Shown here: positions 52,724 to 63,890 of the stretch, piece by piece
How positions within the stretch are numbered: position 1 is the first letter of the stretch
Layout of the letters: each line of letters starts with the position of its first letter
NCBI GenBank assembly: GCA_008729055.1
Contig: SDUX01000005.1
Location: 1,806,875-1,870,874, forward strand
DNA: 64,000 nucleotides
From: Pyropia haitanensis
Lineage: Eukaryota > Rhodophyta > Bangiophyceae > Bangiales > Bangiaceae
Direction: 5' to 3'
Position numbers and translations under genes: made by a program
Notes under the pieces: model-generated
Told to the model about the DNA's origin: nothing
The model's database searches: none
Seen by the model: the letters and a program-made list of their open reading frames with translations, nothing else

Positions 52724-52804
52724 CAAACGAGATGGTCATGACCATCTCGGAGAAGATCTAGGGGGGGGTCGATGGTTTCCGAGATGGTCATGACCATCTC
52801 GTTT
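52724..52804. repeat. Nested palindromes: two 20-bp perfect palindromes inside a 26-bp inverted repeat
   Basis: gagatggtcatgaccatctc at 52729-52748 is its own reverse complement, and the identical sequence recurs at 52781-52800. The flanking aaac / gttt and gg / cc also mirror, so the whole 81-bp segment is an inverted repeat with a 28-bp loop containing a G run. It could extrude as a cruciform or bind a dimeric protein. No gene is adjacent. Confidence 0.85.
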
Positions 52805-53795
52805 CGGGTTATGGGAAGGTCTATTGGGCTAGAATGGGGTCTAGAACGGGACATTGGAGACATCCTCGAAAGTTTTTGGGTGCAACCCGAAAGCCGCACG
52901 GCGGCCGCTCGTCCCGTGCGGAGGTCCCGCGCCGCGAGGTTCCTGCAGGCCCGTCGCCACGGTTGCTGTGGCGGGCCAGTCGCCACGGCTGCTGTGGCGC
53001 CTCGCGCCTGTCACACATTCGCGCCCGTCACAATCCGCGGGCGGCGCCGGCATCGTCAAAGGAGTTGCAGGCCTGAACAATCCCAATTTCGGGCGCATCT
53101 TTGTCGCGGCACAAAATCGTGGAGTCACAGCACGGTTGGAAAACAGTCGCGGACATGTTCGCCCCTCCCGAGACCCTATCGCGACAAAAGCGGCCGACCA
53201 GGCAGAGACTCGCGTGAGCTGAGCTGGCGCGCCCCACGGTGACGACGCACTAATCGCGGTCGCATTCAGCTAACCCATTGCGTGCCTAATGCGGCCATGC
53301 GTCCGCTACGGTCGGCGTCCCACGCGTGGGCGGCAGCGCCGCGCGATACCGGGTGGGGGTGCGGGCGTCATGTGCAGTGCACGGCCACATGCTGTTGAGG
53401 CCATGTCCTTTCTTATGGGAGCGGTGCGACAAGGACAAGCGAAATGCAGCGTGGCGGACCATGAACCTCCACCCATGAACCGTCCTCCTCGCAGCCGACC
53501 TCGTCCCATCCAGCGTCGCATACCCACTCGTCTGCCGCCCGCCGCACCGGCACCCACCGGTACATGAGTGCCAGTGAAGCTCCATGCGACCCGCCCTTCA
53601 CCCATCAACAGTCAATCAATAAAAGCCTCTCCCTGCCCTGGATGCCAGCCTTCAACCTACTTCCGGCGAGCTGCACCACCCGGCACCCTTCAGCCGGCCA
53701 GTCCAGTGCGACTGGCGTGTCACCGTACCGCCATCCCTCAAGCCTCGCAAACCTGGTCTGCTAAGACCGCACACCTTACATCGCCACCGGACGTC
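52805..53795. other. Spacer; 26-bp direct duplication, no gene
   Basis: About 52953-53004 contains two copies of gtcgccacgg(t/c)tgctgtggcg in tandem. The rest, to 53795, is the 3' flank of the minus-strand gene, with aataaaagcc at about 53618 on the plus strand. No coding motif was found. Confidence 0.45.
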
Positions 53796-55736
53796 CTAGT
53801 CAACCTGCTCCATGAGAGCGCCGGCCACGATGACCGCGTCACCTTCCCCGCCGGCCGGCACAACGCCACCACCGGCTGCGCCGCCCGACGCACTGCCACC
53901 ACCGGCTGTTTCCCCCGACGCACCGCCACCACCGGGTGCGCCGCGCGACGAGCCGCCACCACCAGCTGCGCCGCCCGACGGTCCGCCACCACTGGCTGCG
54001 CCGCGCGACGGTCCGCCACCACTGGCTGCTGCGTCGCCGTTGCCAGCGTGAGGGCGCCGGGCAGACGCCCGGGCGGGGTTTGCCGCGTCGACGAGACGCA
54101 GCCCCCTCATTGTCAGCGGCGTCCGCCACATCGCCAGGTCGAGGGACGCCATCTCACGCACCCATGGATCCCGGTGACCCTCGTTGACGCCAGGGTGTCT
54201 GACGACGGCCGCAGCTGGCCCAGCACCGGCGCGCAGCTTGAGGTGCTCGCGCACCTTAGTGACCACCAGCGCGAATTGCGCGAACAGGCACACAACGGTG
54301 TTGGCCCGCGTCTCCGGGACCGTCTCCGAGAACAAGTGGCACGCTTTCAAAGATGCAAACATACTCCTCGCCCCGGCGAGCAGCGCAACGTGTCCGTACA
54401 GCTCGTTGAAAAAGCGGTCGTTCATGAGGAAGAACGCGGCTTCGTCCGCTGACAGCTCCAGAACCGTGCGCGTCCTGCTGCCGCGTACTGCCACCTCTGA
54501 CCCCATACCGGTGCTCTCCTTGACACTTGAAATGAAGGCCTTGACCGCCGCCCTTCCCAGCCCCTCGTAAAAGTGCGAAACTGTCCGCTTGAGGTAGCGA
54601 TAAGCGGCCATCGTGTCCGACCTGCCGTCGGCCTTCCGCTTCGGCACTTTCACTCGCCTCATCAGCTTCGAGTTTGCCTCGCCGGCAGTGATCTCGAGGC
54701 GGTTCGACACCAGGTCGACCAGCGTCGCGTTATGGACGTCCATGGGCTTGTAGACGTCCCACGCGCATTTCGCCTCGATGAAGTCCTTCTTCAGAGCCGT
54801 GGACAGGTCCTTCTACGAGGCAAATCAGGAGAACAGCAAGTGCACAAAAACTCTGTCCAAAGACCAGTAGCCGTCAGTTTCTGAAACAGAGCAAACAGGC
54901 GAACAGGTGGCGTGAAGCGGTCGCATGGGGCCAACTGCCAATGCAAGAGCTTGCACTCAACTCCCCGTGACGTCGCCCGTAGAAAGAAAGACAGAACGTA
55001 CCTTGAAGATCGACACCCAAGCATTGGGGTCCTCCTCCTCATCGATATCAACCTCCCCATCGTTGTCGTCAGTGACAGCCAGCAACTCCTTCTTCTCGTT
55101 GATGCGCTGCATCACTGCGGCCATGGTGGCCTGGTCAGCGGCACGGGCGGTGGCGGCGCTCTCATGAGCGACGGTCAACTGGTCGATCTTGGTCATGCCG
55201 GCAGCCATCTGCCGAGCAAGCTCCACGGACTGGGCTCGCTGCTCGGTCAGGCAAGAACGCACGGACGCGAAGCTGCGCTTGATCCTTTCAACCACGTCGG
55301 CATTGGAGAGCACCGCCGGCTCGGCATCAGACCCCACCGTGCCTCCGTTGTCAGCAGCTGCGGCTGCGCCTCCGGCACGACGAGGGGAGGCAGAGCGCGC
55401 CCGCGGCGACGCAGTGGCACTACGGCGGCGCGCGGCGGCAGGCTCTTGACGGCCTTGACGAGCAGGTGACGGGGGTAGCGCGGCGTAACCTCCGGAAGGC
55501 GGCGCGCCAGTGGGCCCCGCAGACGGCCAAGAAGAAAGGCCTGAAGGAAGCACTCCGTGCGCGTATGACCCGCGTGCGGGGTCTGCCAGGGGGGCTCGGC
55601 GCGAGTCGTAGAAAACACGCACAGCCGAAGAGGCGCCACCATAGGCTGTGTGCATCGTCGTCGCCAGACGGCCGTCGTCCTGCGAGAAGGAGAAGTCGGC
55701 CGGCAGGTCAGCTGCCGGGGGTGCACGGGAAGACAT
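53796..55736 (-). CDS. Unknown 583-residue protein, two exons, possible transposon accessory protein
   Basis: Exon 1 55736-55002 (MSSRAPPAADL start) and exon 2 54812-53796 join in phase 0 (735 + 1,017 nt). The 189-bp intron is GTACGT...CGTAG. Residues 1-140 are Ser/Pro/Ala/Arg-rich and probably disordered; about 143-225 is a predicted helix or coiled coil (NADVVERIKRSFASVRSCL, MAAVMQRINEKKELL); an acidic DNDGEVDIDEEEDP follows. Exon 2 has basic KLMRRVKVPKRKADGR, a mixed helical domain (FFLMNDRFFNELYGHVALL), and a Gly-rich tail of six 10-residue repeats ending at TAG. I recognise no family. It is divergent from the intact transposase at 58509, across tandem repeats. CACTA-type elements carry a second, DNA-binding protein gene, so a similar role is possible, but that is inference from position only. 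Confidence 0.6.
53860..54045 (-). repeat. 30-bp tandem repeat encoding Gly-rich decapeptides
   Basis: Six 30-bp units in the 3' part of the 583-residue protein encode ASGGGPSRGA, ASGGGPSGGA, AGGGGSSRGA, PGGGGASGET and similar. The unit length keeps the frame, so copy number can vary without harming the protein. Confidence 0.8.
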
Positions 55737-56129
55737 AGGTGATCGTAACGCCTGGACAGTCAAGCACCTGGGGAGAAGGGCAAGAAAGGGGGGGGCTCTG
55801 GGTGGGCACGAGCAAAAGTGGAGCGGCGGAGCGGCGAGGAGGCAGTGGCATGTACCAGTGAGTGTCGGGTGCTGGCGATACGGGGTGCACGTTAGAGGCC
55901 CGTCTTATACGCGAACTCCTCCGGGTGACAGGCACTCCGCTGGACTCACACAGTCGGCCCCTCATGTCGCAGGATCGTTGTTCTCTCCGCCAGCGTGCAC
56001 ACACCTGACGCCCCACCCGCCGTCACTCCGCACGATGTGGCCTATTGGACACGTACGTCTGCAACCATCTTGTTCATCGTGCTCCGAGCTTCGCGACGCC
56101 GCGGGCTCGATGCAGGCAGGAGGTTGGCG

Positions 56130-56290
56130 CATATCTCACCAGCGATCCGGGCGTGCGGTTGGCGCAGCTCTCGACAGCGATCCGGGCGGGCGGTCGGCGT
56201 AGCTCTCGCCAGCGACCCGGGCGGACGGTTGCCACCGCTCTCGCCACCGATCCAGGAGGGCGGCTGGCGCAGCCATCGCCTGCGTCGTCT
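56130..56290. repeat. 36-37-bp tandem repeat, four copies, between the divergent genes
   Basis: gcgatccgggcg-type units begin near 56141, 56178, 56214 and 56250, each followed by g(c/t)ggttggcgcagctctcg variants. It lies about 400-550 bp upstream of the minus-strand 583-residue gene, in its promoter side. Confidence 0.75.
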
Positions 56291-57199
56291 GCGCTCGAGT
56301 AGTCGTAGACACTGGCAGCCACGGCAGCTGCAACAGGGGCATGACCCGCCCGGGCCACCGGTGTCAAGGGACGGAGGCCAGCTCGGGCAAGGTCTGCGCG
56401 GCTGGCGTCGCGGCTAAGCGTTCGTGGGTGACAGCGGGGGTGGACAGCCGTCGGCCTGCAGAGGAATCTGGTAAATGGACGTGGCGACGGCGGCACAAAA
56501 GGACAGCCACGAGGAGCCTTATCGGCACGATCTCCACATTTGGTGTGAACAACAGTCAAATTTCGCCACACCAGCCCATCTGATTGGGTGATCTGCACCG
56601 AAAGTGGTCCAAACAGCCTGAAGCTTTCGTCAAAACTCCCCTGTGGAATTGCTGCCGACTAAACAGTTCTGGGATTCAGACGATCCGCTTGGATGTTTTT
56701 CTGACACGCAACCTTCCAGCCGTCCATCTGGCCCATGAGCTACATGATTGTTGCTCCTCGACACTGGGGGTCCTGCGGGGGGGCGCCTTGGCGTTTTCCT
56801 CCTGAAGGTGGTGCTTCTGCGGCGGCTGCACTACGGCCTGTGGCCCCGTTCCTCCGGGAAGCGCGACGGGTACCCTTTAGCGGGCCTGAGCAGCGAAGGG
56901 CGTCAGTTGCGGACGGGTCGGCGCCGACGCAGTATGGCGGGCCACTCGAGGTTGGCCGTCGGCCCGTGCGAGATTGGCCGACGATGCGCCGTGTTGCCTG
57001 GCGGCCAGTGTTTCCTTTCTCCCGCCGCGGCGGACGATGGGGGTTGGCGTAGGAGCGGCCAACAGGAGGAAGCCGAGCTCCCTCACGTAGGATGGCGCAT
57101 GGCGGCGTTCACGGCGACGAGGAGGTTGCAGACGCGCATCGTCCGGCCTTCATTCCTGTGGCCTGCGCCTAGCCGCGTCCTCTTTTGCCTGCTTGCGTG

Positions 57200-58120
57200 C
57201 GGCGACTGCGGTGGGTGTGTCGGGGGGCGACGGCCGGTGAGATCTCTGCGAGCAGCGCGCCGGTGCTGTGTGCCGGCATCTTCGGCGACGACGACGAGGC
57301 AGTCGTCCACGACGGCTTGCCGGGCGGCCGGCGTGATGGGGGTGGCGCGACTGGTGAAGTCGTCGTGGGGGTGCCGTTGGGGGACGCCATCGTCTGTGTG
57401 TGTTTGTGGCGGCGGGCGCCCATCTGGCGTTCTGTTTTGCTTGCTTGAGTGTGGCGGCAGCGGTGGGTGCGTGCGGCGGCGACGGCGGGTGCCATCTTTG
57501 CCAGCGACGCACTGGTGCGGGGTGGCGGCATCTTCGTCGACGACAAAGAGGCGGTCGTCCACGACGGCTTGCCGGGCGGCCGCCGTAAGGGGTGTCGCGC
57601 AACTGGTGCTGTCGTCGTGCGGAAAGCGTGCCGTGATGCCATCTTCTGGGCTTCACCGCGGTTGCAGGCATCCACCCGACTTTGTGCTCTGAAGCGTGGT
57701 CAGCCGCAGCGGGGGTGGGTGAGGCGGCGGCGGCATTGAAGCGCATGTGAGGTGCTGTGGCGGCTGGATCTACCACCACGACGCGTTGACCGAGGACGGG
57801 CTATCGACGGGCCGCCACGAGTGGTGTGGCGCAAGAGTGACTGTTGTTTTGCGGGGGCGGTGCGGTGCAGCATCGTCCGGGTTGTATGGCCCAGGCGGTG
57901 GCCTCCAGGGGACATGGGCACCAGACGGCTTGCGTGCGGCAGCGGTGGTGGGTGCGGTAGCGGCGGCGGGTGCCACCGCCGGAAGCGGCGCGCCGGCGCG
58001 GTGCGGCGACTGCTGCTTTGCCGACGACGACATGGTAGTCTACGACGGCGTGGCCGGCTGCCACCCTGTGCAGTGCCGCGCAGCTGCTGCTGTTGACATA
58101 CGGTTGCAGCACTGCTTCTC
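57200..58120. repeat. About 245-bp tandem repeat, roughly four copies, in the shared upstream region
   Basis: cacgacggcttgccgggcgg recurs at about 57309 and 57559, with diverged equivalents near 57798 (gacgggctatcgacgggccg) and 58040 (tacgacggcgtggccggctg), spacings 239-250 bp. Each copy also carries gcggcggcgg-tgcc and cttcg-cgacgac words. The array lies in the upstream region of the transposase (ATG 58509), whose open frame extends unbroken through part of it. Subterminal repeats binding the transposase or its partner are typical of CACTA elements; a similar role is possible here. Confidence 0.7.
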
Positions 58121-58508
58121 ATCGTCTGGGGTTCACCGCGGTGGGTGGCCACTCGGAACTGTGTACGGTCGGCTTTCGTGTGGCGGCGGCCGGGGGTGGG
58201 GCAGCGGCAGCTGTGCATGTGGTGACAGCTGCGGTCGGCGGGGCGGCAAAGAAGGATTGCATGGCGGTCTGTCTGTGCTGCTGTTCGCGTCCGCAATTGG
58301 CGGCACCGTGGGTGGGCGCCTGACGCAGGTACGCGGGGAACAGCTTCACGGAGGAGGTATTAAGCACGCTGAGCGGCGCGGCATTGCGCTTCTCTCCTGG
58401 AATCGTACCCCCCTCCGCTGCAGTATCTCCCTTTTATCCCAATACACGTTGAGTGCCGCCCCACTCACCTCTCCTTCCTGCTTGTGGTCCACGAAGCGCG
58501 GTGGCGGT

Positions 58509-61500
58509 ATGTCGGCTCCCGGCGGCTCCATCTCCAAGAATGCGCACAAGTGTTCGTTCTGCTGCCGGTGCTTCCCGTCGGCTGCCACGAGGCAGCGCCA
58601 CATGAACGTCGCGCACGTGCGGGAGCAGCTTCTGATGCCGCCGCCGCCCGACTCAGACGAAAAGGAGGATGGCCCTGCTCGGCCGTTGGGAAACTCGTCT
58701 CCTTCCGGCGTGCTGGGCGGTGGCAGCGCGGACGACCTGGACGACATCCATCCTGTGCATCCTACGACGGAGGGCACGGCGGCTGAAGCTGCCGACAATG
58801 CTGCTGCGGCGTCCACCTTCGTCGACCAGAGCGTTGAAGAGTCACGCACCCGTGACAGCAACGAAGGAGTGGCCAGGGGCACTCTGGCTGGACCGCGGCC
58901 ACCTGCGGCCGCGGTGCGTCACGTCCTTAGTTCGAGCGTCGCCGCACGCATCCGAGACTACTATGAGCAGATGCCGGAAGCGTCCCTGTCGACGTCTGTG
59001 GCTGGTCGACCGGAGGGGCTGCCTGCAAGCAAGTTCACCGGCGCAGGTATGCGTAAAGTTCTCCAGTTTGTCGTTTCGGCGGGTGGCTGCGGCCTTTCCC
59101 GGGTCGACCAGTACTCCCTGGCTGAGACACTTTACGCGGTGAAGGCCCAGTTTGACTACTCGGACGGGGAGGCCGCCGTGTTCAAGTCCCTGTTTCCCAC
59201 GCCGTCGTCATTCGCCGCGGGCATCCGCACGGAGCAGAACAGGGTGCTTGCACGGCTGGGCTGGTTGCAGGTCCCCATCGTCGTCAACAACAAGACTCAC
59301 ATGATCTACTACCGTGACCTGCTAAGTACGGCCGTCGAGGCGGTGCAGTCAGCGGCAAAAGTCGACCTCGACGGCGGCGCGCTGCCTGACGCCGCGGACG
59401 GCTCTCGGCGCCGGTCGACCTTCCTCGACTCAGACCTGTTCATCAAGGACTCCCATTCGATCAAGAACCTGCACGGGCCGCAAGCACGACCCCTGTTCGC
59501 AAACCTGCACGCCGACGAAGCACTCGTCTCCGGGAGTGGCGCCCACTATGTCTTCCCCATCCGCGCTGAGTTTCCAAGCGTGAACGGTGGCGGCCGCTGG
59601 GTCACCGTCGGGTACGTCCCGCATATAGCGCGGCCGACGGAGCACGGCAGCAAGGTGCTGCTCGCGGCCAGCGACGGCCGCAACGACCTGCTACAGCGTT
59701 GTTTGGCGGTCTTGCTGCGCCGGTTCGTGCGCGCCAGTGAGCGAGGCTTCCCTGTCCACGTGGGTGGGGAGAGCATGCGGATGTTGGTGCCACGCATTGG
59801 AGGCGTAGTGGTGGACTTCTTTGAGGAACGCGCTCTGTACGCCCTTGGAGGTACGCGGAGCAACATGATCTGCTCGCACTGCCGGGTGAGCCGTGCCGTT
59901 TGCTGCGATGCAAAGGCTGGAGAAGCCCATCCACGCGACGTCGTTGAGACGTTGGAGGCCCAACTGCACGCAGCGAAGCGCCGACTAGTCGGTGAGCGCG
60001 CTTCCCTCCGTGGTCCCCTCGCCCTCGCCCACAGTGCGCTGGCCTTTGTACCGGCATTGGGTGCAGTGCACGGCCTTTCGACGGGGAACCTAAACTACTT
60101 CCGTGTCATCACCTTCGACCTTTTGCACGTTTGGAAGTTGGGCATCTTGCAGATGATGGCGCAGCTTCTGCCTGCCTTTCTGAAGTCGGTTTGTACGTCT
60201 GAGGCGGGCGCCAGGATGGGGACTGTGCAGCGCACGCTGGACGTGATCAACCTGCGCGGCTTCCGGCTTGGGCGTCGCTGTCGTGCTTCTCCCGCGCCTC
60301 CTGGGTGCTTTGTGTCGCCGAAGGAGAAACAGGCCACCATGAATGGCCGGAGCTGGCGGCACTTCGTCGTTCATTGGCCGTTCATGGTTGCCAGACTGGC
60401 GGGCCCGGCGGATCCTCAGCGCCTTTTGTCGTCGCTGCGTCGCAGTCAGCGGGTGAGGGCGCAGTCGCTTTTCCGTGCTGAAGTGGACGAGGAAGACTCG
60501 AGCCCTGGGCTGGAGGAGGAAGATCAACCAGCTCCTTGCGGCTTCGAGATGGGCGAGGGGTCGAACTACCACTCCCTTTTCGGGGAGATGCCGGTGGAGG
60601 ACGCAGTACAGGACATGTACTGCCAAGCCGCGTCACTGAGCGGCCGCTTTGTTGGCGACAATGTCGCGGAAACGGTCTACCTTTCCGGCAACGAGCTGGG
60701 GTCCATTGCGGCGGCGGCTCTCAAGCTGGGACGCTGTATCCAGGTCATTCTGGGGCCGGTCCACACGTCGAAGCTGCACCGGTTAATGCTTCACCTCGCT
60801 GCTGAGTTGCAGAACCGCGGGAACCTGTCGGAGGGCGACACGAGCGTAAACGAGTCGCTTCACAAGCTTTGCAAGAAGATGTATACCCGCTCAAACAAGC
60901 GCGGTCCCACCCTCTCGATGCAGATGATGCGCGGCGAGCAGAGCCAGACGGAGATTTTGCGCGGTATGGTCAACGATGAGGGCAGCGATGACGAGGAGGT
61001 CGCGGACGAGAGCGACGACGAGGAGGCTACGGAACGGCGTCACGCGGCAAGGGACGGTCATGTCGTGGACGTCTCCGACGTCCCGCCGGTCGTGCTGCAG
61101 ATGAGCACTCGTGGCATTTGGTTCGCGCTGGAGGACGTGCTTGGTCTGCCCGGCTTGTCAAACCTGCCCGAGTTGCTGGAGGTTGACCGAGCGACTACTG
61201 TAACGGTTGCCAAGACGCTCTTGTTTGAGCCAAGGTTCGAGTGGGACGCTGCTCGCGACGTGCAGTACCTGCGTGCTACGCCGTCGTTTAATGGCCGCCC
61301 GTGGTATAACCGCCTGCGCTACTTGGACGCGGATGGCGTGGTTTGCTGGGGTCAGGCTCGTTTGGTGCTGCGACGCGTTGAGCGTACCACCCGCCATTGC
61401 ATTGTGGTTTGGCGCATGCGGCGGGCAGAGGCGCGCCCAGGTTGCGTTCTTTCGGCGTACGGCTGCCAGCGGCTGGCCTGGCATTTACCGTTTTCGGGCA

Positions 61501-61700
61501 GCTTGTGGCCGAGTGTGGAGATCGTTGACGTGGAGCAGATCCTGCGCCTCGAGCATGAGTTGCCGGACTGGAGGGACATGGCGGACCGCGGTGGCATCGA
61601 CACCATGGGCTCAGAGAGGGTCGTCACCGTGGCAGAGCGACGTGACGCGCGGTTTTTTGTGAACGCCTTTTACCCTTGGACGTCACGCAAGCAATCGTGA
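58509..61700 (+). CDS. Plavaka/CACTA-superfamily-like transposase, intact, 1063 residues
   Basis: One exon from ATG 58509 to TGA 61698-61700. I chose this ATG because it directly precedes a C2H2 finger (C15, C18, H31, H36: KCSFCCRCFPSAATRQRHMN), although the frame is open upstream to 57747 through repeats. Then follow an acidic linker, a helical region (RIRDYYEQMPEASL), YVFPIRAEFPSVNGGGRWV with VGYVPHI (like the PV...N.P...R...GYLP block of Plavaka proteins), LLAASDGRNDL, GFPVHVGGESMRMLVP, VVVDFFEERALYALGG, MICSHCRVSR, and FDLLHVWKLGILQMM near residue 537, corresponding to the DiLH block. GDTSVNESLHKLCKK (about 780) and an acidic GSDDEEVADESDDEE precede a C-terminal domain. Assignment rests on this motif order; the catalytic acids are not proven. 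No stop or frameshift in 3.2 kb argues for recent activity or selection. Confidence 0.65.
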   Translation: MSAPGGSISKNAHKCSFCCRCFPSAATRQRHMNVAHVREQLLMPPPPDSDEKEDGPARPLGNSSPSGVLGGGSADDLDDIHPVHPTTEGTAAEAADNAAAASTFVDQSVEESRTRDSNEGVARGTLAGPRPPAAAVRHVLSSSVAARIRDYYEQMPEASLSTSVAGRPEGLPASKFTGAGMRKVLQFVVSAGGCGLSRVDQYSLAETLYAVKAQFDYSDGEAAVFKSLFPTPSSFAAGIRTEQNRVLARLGWLQVPIVVNNKTHMIYYRDLLSTAVEAVQSAAKVDLDGGALPDAADGSRRRSTFLDSDLFIKDSHSIKNLHGPQARPLFANLHADEALVSGSGAHYVFPIRAEFPSVNGGGRWVTVGYVPHIARPTEHGSKVLLAASDGRNDLLQRCLAVLLRRFVRASERGFPVHVGGESMRMLVPRIGGVVVDFFEERALYALGGTRSNMICSHCRVSRAVCCDAKAGEAHPRDVVETLEAQLHAAKRRLVGERASLRGPLALAHSALAFVPALGAVHGLSTGNLNYFRVITFDLLHVWKLGILQMMAQLLPAFLKSVCTSEAGARMGTVQRTLDVINLRGFRLGRRCRASPAPPGCFVSPKEKQATMNGRSWRHFVVHWPFMVARLAGPADPQRLLSSLRRSQRVRAQSLFRAEVDEEDSSPGLEEEDQPAPCGFEMGEGSNYHSLFGEMPVEDAVQDMYCQAASLSGRFVGDNVAETVYLSGNELGSIAAAALKLGRCIQVILGPVHTSKLHRLMLHLAAELQNRGNLSEGDTSVNESLHKLCKKMYTRSNKRGPTLSMQMMRGEQSQTEILRGMVNDEGSDDEEVADESDDEEATERRHAARDGHVVDVSDVPPVVLQMSTRGIWFALEDVLGLPGLSNLPELLEVDRATTVTVAKTLLFEPRFEWDAARDVQYLRATPSFNGRPWYNRLRYLDADGVVCWGQARLVLRRVERTTRHCIVVWRMRRAEARPGCVLSAYGCQRLAWHLPFSGSLWPSVEIVDVEQILRLEHELPDWRDMADRGGIDTMGSERVVTVAERRDARFFVNAFYPWTSRKQS

Positions 61701-63890
61701 GCAGGCTTCTTGCAGCTGGCGTCGGCCTTCGTTGGCGGGTGTGCACGTCGGCGGCGATACATCGCTTGCGGTGCCGTCGGCGCGGGCGGGGCCTAGATGG
61801 CGCTGGACATGGTCTTGGTGGTGCGTGAGGGGCGGGACAATGACCCTCGTTCGTGGCGTGTGGTGTTGGCAGGGGTAACGTGTGCCGGGTTGCTGTTCGT
61901 GGTAACGCTTTTTTTGTAAGCGTGGTCGTGCGCTGCGCGAGTCGTCTTTTAGTTTGTTTTTGTGTTGAGTGAGTGCGTGGGTTGCGGTCGACGGAACTGG
62001 CTTCCGTCGTCCTTGTCGGCATCGTCTACCTGCTTTGATAGAATAGTTGTAGGTCTCTTTGACGTTCCCTCTTTATAGAGGCACTTATCCCACACGCTCT
62101 GTAGCGTGGCAGCAACACCGTTCCTGTGTTAACCTATCAGCCATCTCCATGAGACACAGCGACGGATCTCCTCTTTCCGCCTGGCTGGACACGCCCACCG
62201 CAGCCACAGCAACAATTACCCACTGCGACGCCCCTCCCGCCTGCATCAGAAATGTGCAAAAACAACAACTGCTTGCACCGCATACAAGCAAAGCACGGCC
62301 GCCGCGACACCCGTCCCCACCGCTGCCGTAGGTGCCCATCCGCGCGCTGTCCTCGCTGGAGAGCAGACAAGGCTCCGAGTCACCATCAGCCGGCCTTGGC
62401 TGCTGCGTCTGCCGTCCGCAGCTCCACTGAAAACGCCCCGCCTGCTTCACCGCAGCTGCGCGACAGCACAGGTTGGCCACGTTCGCGAGCGGGCCGGCCA
62501 CGGCCGTCACGCCGGGGCCCTTCCCTTCTCGACTGCTATGGCCCCACCGTGCGGCTTCAAGGTTGCCTTACGCTCGAAGTCCACCTCCAACACGCGCCAT
62601 CCCGCCGTGGCCGCCGCCGTCACCGCCGCGACGCGCCTAACGGTCGGCCTGCTGCCGACTCGTCGATGAAGCCCCACACCACCAAGTCCCTGTTCGATGA
62701 TGCCCCACACGACCAATTCGGTTACTAACCAGAGAGCCCGTGCCCTAATTCAAACGGCGGCTATCGTGCTGGACAGTCATTGGTCAGAGTGGCCACGGGA
62801 CGGCTCGGAGCAAGGCAGGATCAAGAGACTCGCTCGCAACAGCCGAGGGCTCCTGCGATTGGGGCCCTCGAGAGCTACCCAAAAAGAGCTGACGCACCTA
62901 CGTTTGTCCAGGCCTTTGTTCGCGGAACGAGGCGCGGCCGAAATTTCAAGCGTTCGGGAACACCCTGTCGTGCGCTCCTGTTCGCAATTTCGTCCTATTG
63001 TCGCTTCCTTTGACGATCCCCGCCCGAGGCGTGTCCCCGTGTGCATCGGGGCCGGCGGGAATGGCACCAGAGAGGGGGGCGGGGCAGGGGTGGCGACAAG
63101 CGGCTGTGCTGCGGCGAGGCAGCATCGGCCGCGGCCCCGCGCGAGAGGGCCGTTCAGGGGCGTGGCGAGCGGGGGCGGGCTGTGGGGGGGGGGTGGGGAA
63201 CCTGCGGCCGTGGCGTGTCGGCCGCGGCCCGACCCAGGAGCATCATTCCCGGACGTGTGGGGGGGGGGGGACGCCCCTACGGGCGCGTGCGGCGGGGGTG
63301 GCAACCAGCGGCCGTGCCGTGTCGGCCGCAGCCCCGCCGGAGAGCATCGCTCTGAGAGGTGTGGGGAGGGGCGGGCGTCACGTGGGAGGCGTCCAAGGGG
63401 GGGTTGGCATGGAGCGGCCATGGCGCGGCCGAGCAGTGTCGGCCGCCCCCGCTCGAGCGCTGCTCAGGTGGTCTGGGAGGGGAGGGTGGGGGGCGGCACG
63501 GGGGAATTGTGGGGGTGCCTGCTCACGAGGGCCGCAGCGTGGCGGCCCCCATGGCCCCCCCCCCACCCTCGACCCTGTTTCGCCCGTGCCTGGTGTGGGG
63601 AGGGGGGGAATGGGTGCTACTGGGTGCATGGTGTGTACCGTGAGGCACGCGCTGCGCTGTTACCCGGTCGCCGTCGCCGTCGTCGTGACCATCCCCAACG
63701 CCGGCACTGCTTCCGCGTCCATCTCTCGCCCCGGCACCGCCGCAATCACCACCATCCCCACCACCACGACGGACACCACCGCCGCCACCGCAGCCGCCAT
63801 CACCACCTGCACGTGAGTGGCTCTGTTTTGTCGCCAGCGGCGCCATCGTGAACGTGTCGGCCGCCCTGTTTTCGCCCGAGGGGCCACGCC
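61701..63890. other. 3' flank of the transposase, then spacer; no gene called
   Basis: 61,700-62,050 is T/G-rich, likely 3' untranslated region. 62,080-62,740 has overlapping frames on both strands without motifs. 63,000-63,640 is a G-rich tandem repeat (listed separately). 63,660-63,820 encodes on the plus strand a Thr/Ala-rich stretch (TTIPTTTTDTTAATAAAITT) of ac/cc-rich triplets, which may be only simple sequence. Confidence 0.45.
63070..63480. repeat. About 90-115-bp tandem repeat, four copies, G-rich
   Basis: tcggccgc words with a g(g/c)ccgtg-c-gtg lead recur near 63126, 63218, 63322 and 63438, separated by G runs up to 12 long. Lengths differ mainly by the G runs, so the true period may be about 105 bp. 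Confidence 0.65.

Follow-up and report, generated by a model that had tools for sequence, protein, structure and literature searches.

A 64,000-nucleotide stretch of the genome of the red alga Pyropia haitanensis (contig SDUX01000005.1, positions 1,806,875 to 1,870,874; hereafter the window) contains at 53,052-63,017 what, judged by its ends and its copies, is one complete DNA transposon. It carries two genes facing away from each other, one for a transposase and one for an accessory protein of an undescribed family. The evidence, drawn from sequence, consists of a single unit that has inverted ends and lies between 2-bp duplications, paired genes in seven copies, constraint, and recent movement. 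The explanation we favour overall, and consider probable, is that of a two-gene transposon whose accessory protein aids the transposase at the element ends in the manner of TnpA. A first-pass annotation of the window had proposed that both genes belong to one element and that tandem arrays between them would be binding sites of the accessory factor; the main two-gene claim holds and the array claim is not supported, so that the annotation is partly supported.

The genome searched comprises 52.9 Mb in 136 contigs, in which the window lies at C6:1806875-1870874 (C-numbers denote contigs and the copies on them). A search with the transposase DNA returned two further close copies (98% identity over the matching pieces, one copy being matched as two pieces) and weaker ones. 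The close copies, C7 and C6b, align to window positions 53050-63017 and 53051-63019, respectively, at 95.6-97.5% identity over long pieces; they have the boundaries, both genes and the arrays in common with the window copy, and the DNA outside differs. The point where these two copies cease to match defines the whole element (53052-63017, + strand), which is 9,966 bp long with an AT at either end and 9,962 bp without these dinucleotides. The ends lie outside both genes, and the element is larger than the span first assigned to it.

Inside the dinucleotides (AT at 53052-53053 and at 63016-63017) lie the terminal inverted repeats, CGTCAAAGGA on the left (53054-53063, + strand) and TCCTTTGACG on the right (63006-63015, - strand). 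Ends of the CGTCANAG type are present in all seven copies. The window family has the ends ATCGTCAAAGGA...TCCTTTGACGAT; C11 has CGTCACAGGA...TCCTGTGACG between AC and AC, and C10b, in element orientation, has CGTCACAGGA...TCCTCTGACG between GT and GT. A 2-bp duplication is found in all seven (AT in five, AC in one, GT in one) and is unambiguous in two. AT is palindromic, and copies flanked by AT are therefore no proof of duplication by themselves; AC on both sides of C11 and GT on both sides of C10b, however, mark the dinucleotide as a direct repeat and not as part of the inverted repeat. It follows that the element begins with CGTCA, finishes with TGACG, and duplicates 2 bp of its target. The flanking DNA outside the dinucleotide is different among all seven copies. 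Immediately outside the window copy, at 52725-52804, there are two 34-nt arms, 91% complementary and 12 nt apart, each with the 22-nt palindrome CGAGATGGTCATGACCATCTCG within it.

The seven copies fall into four families (window/C7/C6b, C9/C10a, C11, and C10b). The four distant copies, from three families, have the layout of the window copy and similar ends, and in all seven the accessory gene is on the left and the transposase gene on the right, both facing outward. The divergent layout with both genes is also found at the loci C8 and C126; no convincing element end was found in the 8.5 kb of C8 that was inspected. The two complete, outward-facing genes of the first-pass annotation (583 and 1,063 residues) are present where it put them, and its proposal that both belong to one element is borne out by the further copies with both genes, the terminal inverted repeats and the 2-bp duplication. 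C9 and C10a are nearly identical, differing in 1 of 250 codons of the accessory core, 0 of 106 of exon 1, and 2 of 451 and 0 of 454 of the two transposase parts, yet they lie at unrelated sites, which argues for recent movement.

Comparison of the copies at their right ends yielded an 18-nt signature, CGTCANAGGNNNNGACAA (62998-63015, read on the minus strand). It has nine exact matches genome-wide, against none for the reversed control; seven are its source ends by construction, and two are new (C77:34915 and C6:2215857). The former (C77:34915-34932) is identical to the signature of C11, lies on a contig without a listed transposase match, and is possibly a non-autonomous or truncated copy. 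The left-end 17-mer is found with 0-1 mismatch only in the window copy, C7 and C6b, and with up to three mismatches 66 times, versus 26 for the control. Small non-autonomous relatives were sought and rejected: the left 740 bp matches just the window copy, C7 and C6b, and the right 1,317 bp matches these three and two short weak stretches at C6:492606-492860.

The transposase frame of C7 is disrupted near residue 118 (two tblastn pieces), and C6b has two insertions, one per gene. That in the accessory gene (about 865 bp, C6:1623208-1624071) starts with TGTGAGG, ends with CCTTACA, and is 99.4% like C10:1490117-1490984; its TGT..ACA ends resemble those given for PlavakaA in PMC12730594. That in the transposase gene (1.8 kb, C6:1614952-1616745) is flanked by the 7-bp direct repeat ACGTCTG and is another mobile element. 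The right quarter of C9 and C10a holds large nested tandem arrays of differing lengths, with periods of 45-390 (C9:2055300-2056240 and C10:752000-753420).

The transposase is encoded in a single open frame of 1,063 residues (58509-61700, + strand). A DDE core of the RAG1/Transib type is present, with C(2)C after the second D; the conserved residues are D336, D389, D436, C455/C458, D537, H540 and E782. H540 is found in 45 of 48 sequences; 16 sequences have a residue at the position of E782, and it is E in 12 of these. The N-terminus has a weak C2H2 match. Against the Pfam family PF18759 the window transposase scores 18.9 bits, below the cut-off of 26.3, which is passed by three of the six relatives scanned (P0017, P0034 and P0045). 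The transposase was modelled with low confidence, and its model matches RAG1 as well as RAG-like and Transib transposases.

The accessory protein (583 residues, minus strand) is encoded in two exons with splice sites predicted from the sequence. Exon 1 (55002-55736, residues 1-245) encodes a low-complexity SP/R-rich part, a conserved segment near residues 145-225 and, by eye, an acidic patch. It is followed by a predicted GT...AG intron of 189 bp (54813-55001) and by exon 2 (53796-54812, residues 246-583), which encodes a conserved core and a Gly-rich tail. The tail corresponds to a 30-bp coding tandem array (53849-54029, minus strand) of 6 copies, with 12.5 copies in C7 and, split by an insertion, 9.7 and 2.0 in C6b. 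A frame break near the position of the window intron is also found in C9, C10b and C8; C11 has a single open frame. Five aligned members have invariant residues across the exon-1 segment and the 250-residue core, including a GxNxGHRxxW motif, and when more distant members are included (eight in all) G453, N455, G457, H458, R459 and W462 are retained.

The window protein has no PDB sequence relative and no Pfam family at E ≤ 1. Among five members six Pfam families appear at E ≤ 1, the best of which, DUF3348 (0.0016, in a single member), is taken as a chance match. The core was modelled with AlphaFold2 over 260 residues (54033-54812, minus strand; pLDDT 83.9, pTM 0.82), and Foldseek gave no confident fold match to this model (best E 1.2). 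No enzyme domain was recognised in the Pfam, PDB and fold searches, and no known DNA-binding domain in the Pfam searches. Relatives were sought among 5.8 billion proteins in two runs, in each of which scoring was confined to the approximately 7,980 candidates with the most shared words; 18 and 21 relatives were found among these, 22 combined. They consist of two Pyropia yezoensis proteins, one JGI metagenome protein (P0063), and 19 proteins tagged 'lgn', which we read as Logan contigs. P0063 has 957 residues; its N-terminal part is long and its C-terminal part acidic. The accessory relative P0049 and the transposase P0003 each come from a contig sized 10,470, probably the same one. A pattern search of viral contigs found no encoded relative of either protein. 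The accessory protein, of no recognised family at first pass, belongs to an undescribed family for which neither Pfam nor the PDB offers a convincing relative. The novelty of the element lies in this family and in the head-to-head layout.

The association of the two genes extends beyond the seven copies. The transposase protein search gave 48 matches (43 of 95 candidates scored), which were grouped by hand into 29 loci; the accessory protein searches gave 12 loci, to which a third query added none. Because the searches score the best candidates only, all locus counts are lower bounds. In all 12 cases the accessory locus is found 2.2-12.5 kb upstream of a transposase and points away from it, so that the gene was not met as a single-copy gene conserved without the transposase. 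Ten of them are strong, and two that are weak by score, C1:421722 (E 8e-4) and C3:912928 (E 2e-4), are supported by position; the chance of one match so placed within 20 kb is about 0.005. The pairing persists down to about 34% accessory identity and holds for each of the nine top-scoring transposase loci.

Nei-Gojobori estimates (own script) put dN/dS between families at 0.13-0.30 in the accessory core, at 0.22-0.34 in exon 1 (with just 41-45 codons in the C10b pairs), and at 0.11-0.20 and 0.20-0.28 in the two parts of the transposase; with dS near saturation in many pairs, the ratios are rough. C9 and C11 are the closest between-family pair for both genes. By these ratios, both genes are under purifying selection between families.

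The intergenic space (55737-58508, 2,772 bp) contains the two arrays of the first-pass annotation, with periods of 35 and 252 bp and not 36 and 245. The 35-bp array beside the accessory gene (56108-56284) has 5.1 copies, as in C7, and 4.1 in C6b; the 252-bp array beside the transposase gene (57208-57732) has just 2.1, and 2.8 in both C7 and C6b. Neither unit was seen in the other three families (C9, C10a, C11 and C10b), and the claim that these arrays are binding sites of the factor is therefore not supported. By Tandem Repeats Finder at a score of 60 or more, C9 and C10a have intergenic arrays with periods of 24 and 60 (about 2 copies each), C10b has one with a period of 34 (2.1 copies), and for C11 no array was reported anywhere at this score. 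Because they differ in sequence among families and are missing in one, internal arrays are doubtful as general binding sites. Subterminal repeats of CACTA elements also differ between families (PMC2613891), and it is possible that the arrays are family-specific, co-evolving binding sites. Intergenic 10-mers shared between the four families outnumber the mean of 50 base-composition shuffles 1.7-2.1-fold and exceed the top shuffle in five of six pairs; since the control does not include dinucleotide composition, nothing is concluded from them.

The outer segments retain CGTCANAGG, GACAA at the right end and TTTCGG about 35 bp inward from the left end are present in all four families, and ATTTCGG is present in three. 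A comparison of k-mers in the outer 350 bp with those in the interior, without multiple-testing correction, gave AATTTCG as a candidate binding motif (53085-53091, + strand; also at 62986, +, and 62939, -; not in C10b). With the 35- and 252-bp units confined to one subfamily, no array reported for C11, and these short motifs kept in the outer segments, binding near the ends is favoured.

The element is best explained as a member of the RAG1/CACTA/Transib/Plavaka group with two divergent genes. PMC12730594 gives as features of the CACTA-Mirage-Chapaev-Transib-Plavaka-RAG1 (CMCT) group a C(2)C after the second D, an H(3-4)H before the last E, a target duplication of 2-5 bp and, 'in most cases', 5'-CA..TG-3' termini. 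The duplication here is 2 bp, within that range. The termini are CG..CG in all seven copies, which the source's own qualification makes compatible with membership. PlavakaB elements of fungi, in the same paper, have CATCA..TGATG ends and a duplication of 2 or 3 bp. The present element resembles them in its related transposase, its 2-bp duplication, the C(2)C after the second D, and the possibility of an extra gene. It differs in its CGTCA..TGACG ends (seven of seven copies; G and not A at the second end position), in its red algal host, and in an extra gene of another family, placed head to head and with no enzyme domain recognised. In view of the end position and the missed Pfam cut-off, the Plavaka likeness proposed at first pass is retained as a relationship, and the element is not filed as PlavakaB.

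With the CACTA elements En/Spm, Tam1 and Tgmt* it shares the combination of a conserved transposase with a second protein that is poorly conserved; En/Spm needs both of its proteins, and its TNPA binds to subterminal repeats (PMC2613891). In contrast to these, it has CGTCA and not CACTA ends, a 2-bp and not a 3-bp duplication, and divergent genes; there is no tnp2 among its Pfam matches, and no dense short repeats were found beside the window-family ends. Merlin elements are reported in Rhodophyceae (PMC8101967) and EnSpm-Plavaka elements in a green alga (PMC12636532); no Plavaka-type or two-gene element of red algae appears in the titles and abstract openings surveyed, a coverage that stops short of subscription journals and Repbase.

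The modelled transposase fold suggests a likeness to RAG-like transposons and Transib. These have a 5-bp target duplication, and the transposase of ProtoRAG has a partner protein, RAG2L. Here the duplication is 2 bp, and the partner is without a Pfam match, so that no RAG2-type domain is seen. Taken by analogy, the element seems to operate as two-protein CACTA elements do, but with RAG1-type chemistry. The DDE transposase would cut at the CGTCA ends and insert where a purine is followed by a pyrimidine (AT, AC and GT are seen). From the analogy with TnpA in CACTA elements we infer an end-binding role for the accessory protein, which would bind short end-proximal motifs through its exon-1 segment and core and pair the ends for the transposase; it may additionally control the intergenic region.

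Three observations weigh against this reading. First, the accessory gene was not detected at 17 of the 29 transposase loci among scored candidates, in part the outcome that the first-pass annotation had set against a shared element, although the best-scoring loci are all paired. Seven of the 17 (C26, C57, C89, C16, C124, C134 and C118) resemble the C53 subfamily by shared pieces, in which an accessory remnant is found at C53 only and contains stops; the other ten are partial transposase matches of 29-49% identity. The gene may have been lost or may have diverged at the unpaired loci. Second, ratios within the window subfamily are based on few changes, and the high ones among them oppose strong recent constraint on its copies: 0.26-0.48 for the accessory core, 0.08-0.29 for the first transposase part, 0.28, 0.54 and 0.98 for the second, and 2.2-2.5 for exon 1, on a single synonymous change and with none in the third pair. 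Third, pairwise end-to-end scores without the first 10 bp mostly do not rise above background; the 99% value of 28 is exceeded only by C9-C11 (48 on the left, 77 on the right) and by the window/C10b right ends (29). C53 and the seven loci resembling it are partial transposase loci with closely similar piece lengths, possibly an amplified degenerate subfamily.

The strongest rival accepts the element and the pairing and makes the accessory protein an anti-silencing or regulatory factor outside the cutting complex, comparable to the TET/JBP gene that some fungal PlavakaB elements carry (PMC12730594). The 17 unpaired loci and the lack of a recognised DNA-binding domain would fit such a factor; the protein, however, has no recognised enzyme domain, its core is about as constrained as the transposase, and the pairing reaches deep divergence, and we regard this rival as unlikely. 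Far less probable is a passenger gene captured once by an ancestor and without a role: DNA transposons commonly capture host genes, but the between-family dN/dS of the core is low, the matched pieces of C9, C10a, C11 and C10b are stop-free, and side and orientation are constant at every accessory locus, with none found away from a transposase. Nothing was found in favour of two independent genes or elements adjacent by chance, which the boundaries common to three close copies, the layout common to four more, and the unbroken pairing make negligible.

The preferred reading, a TnpA-like partner acting at the ends, allows a bolder extension that we put forward tentatively, at somewhat below even chances: an undescribed two-component recombinase, in which a RAG1-like transposase requires a dedicated partner with a fold unmatched in the PDB, an independent invention of a 'second subunit' that parallels TnpA and RAG2 and has been retained through diversification in red algae. 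With this element the RAG1/CACTA group gains a two-gene lineage whose limits are well defined, and a new protein family beside the transposase at every locus of this genome where that family was detected. The Pyropia yezoensis members of the family are named just 'hypothetical protein' at source. Why such transposases repeatedly gain a second subunit can be tested on this compact and recently mobile element, which could also supply seaweed genetics with an endogenous transposon.
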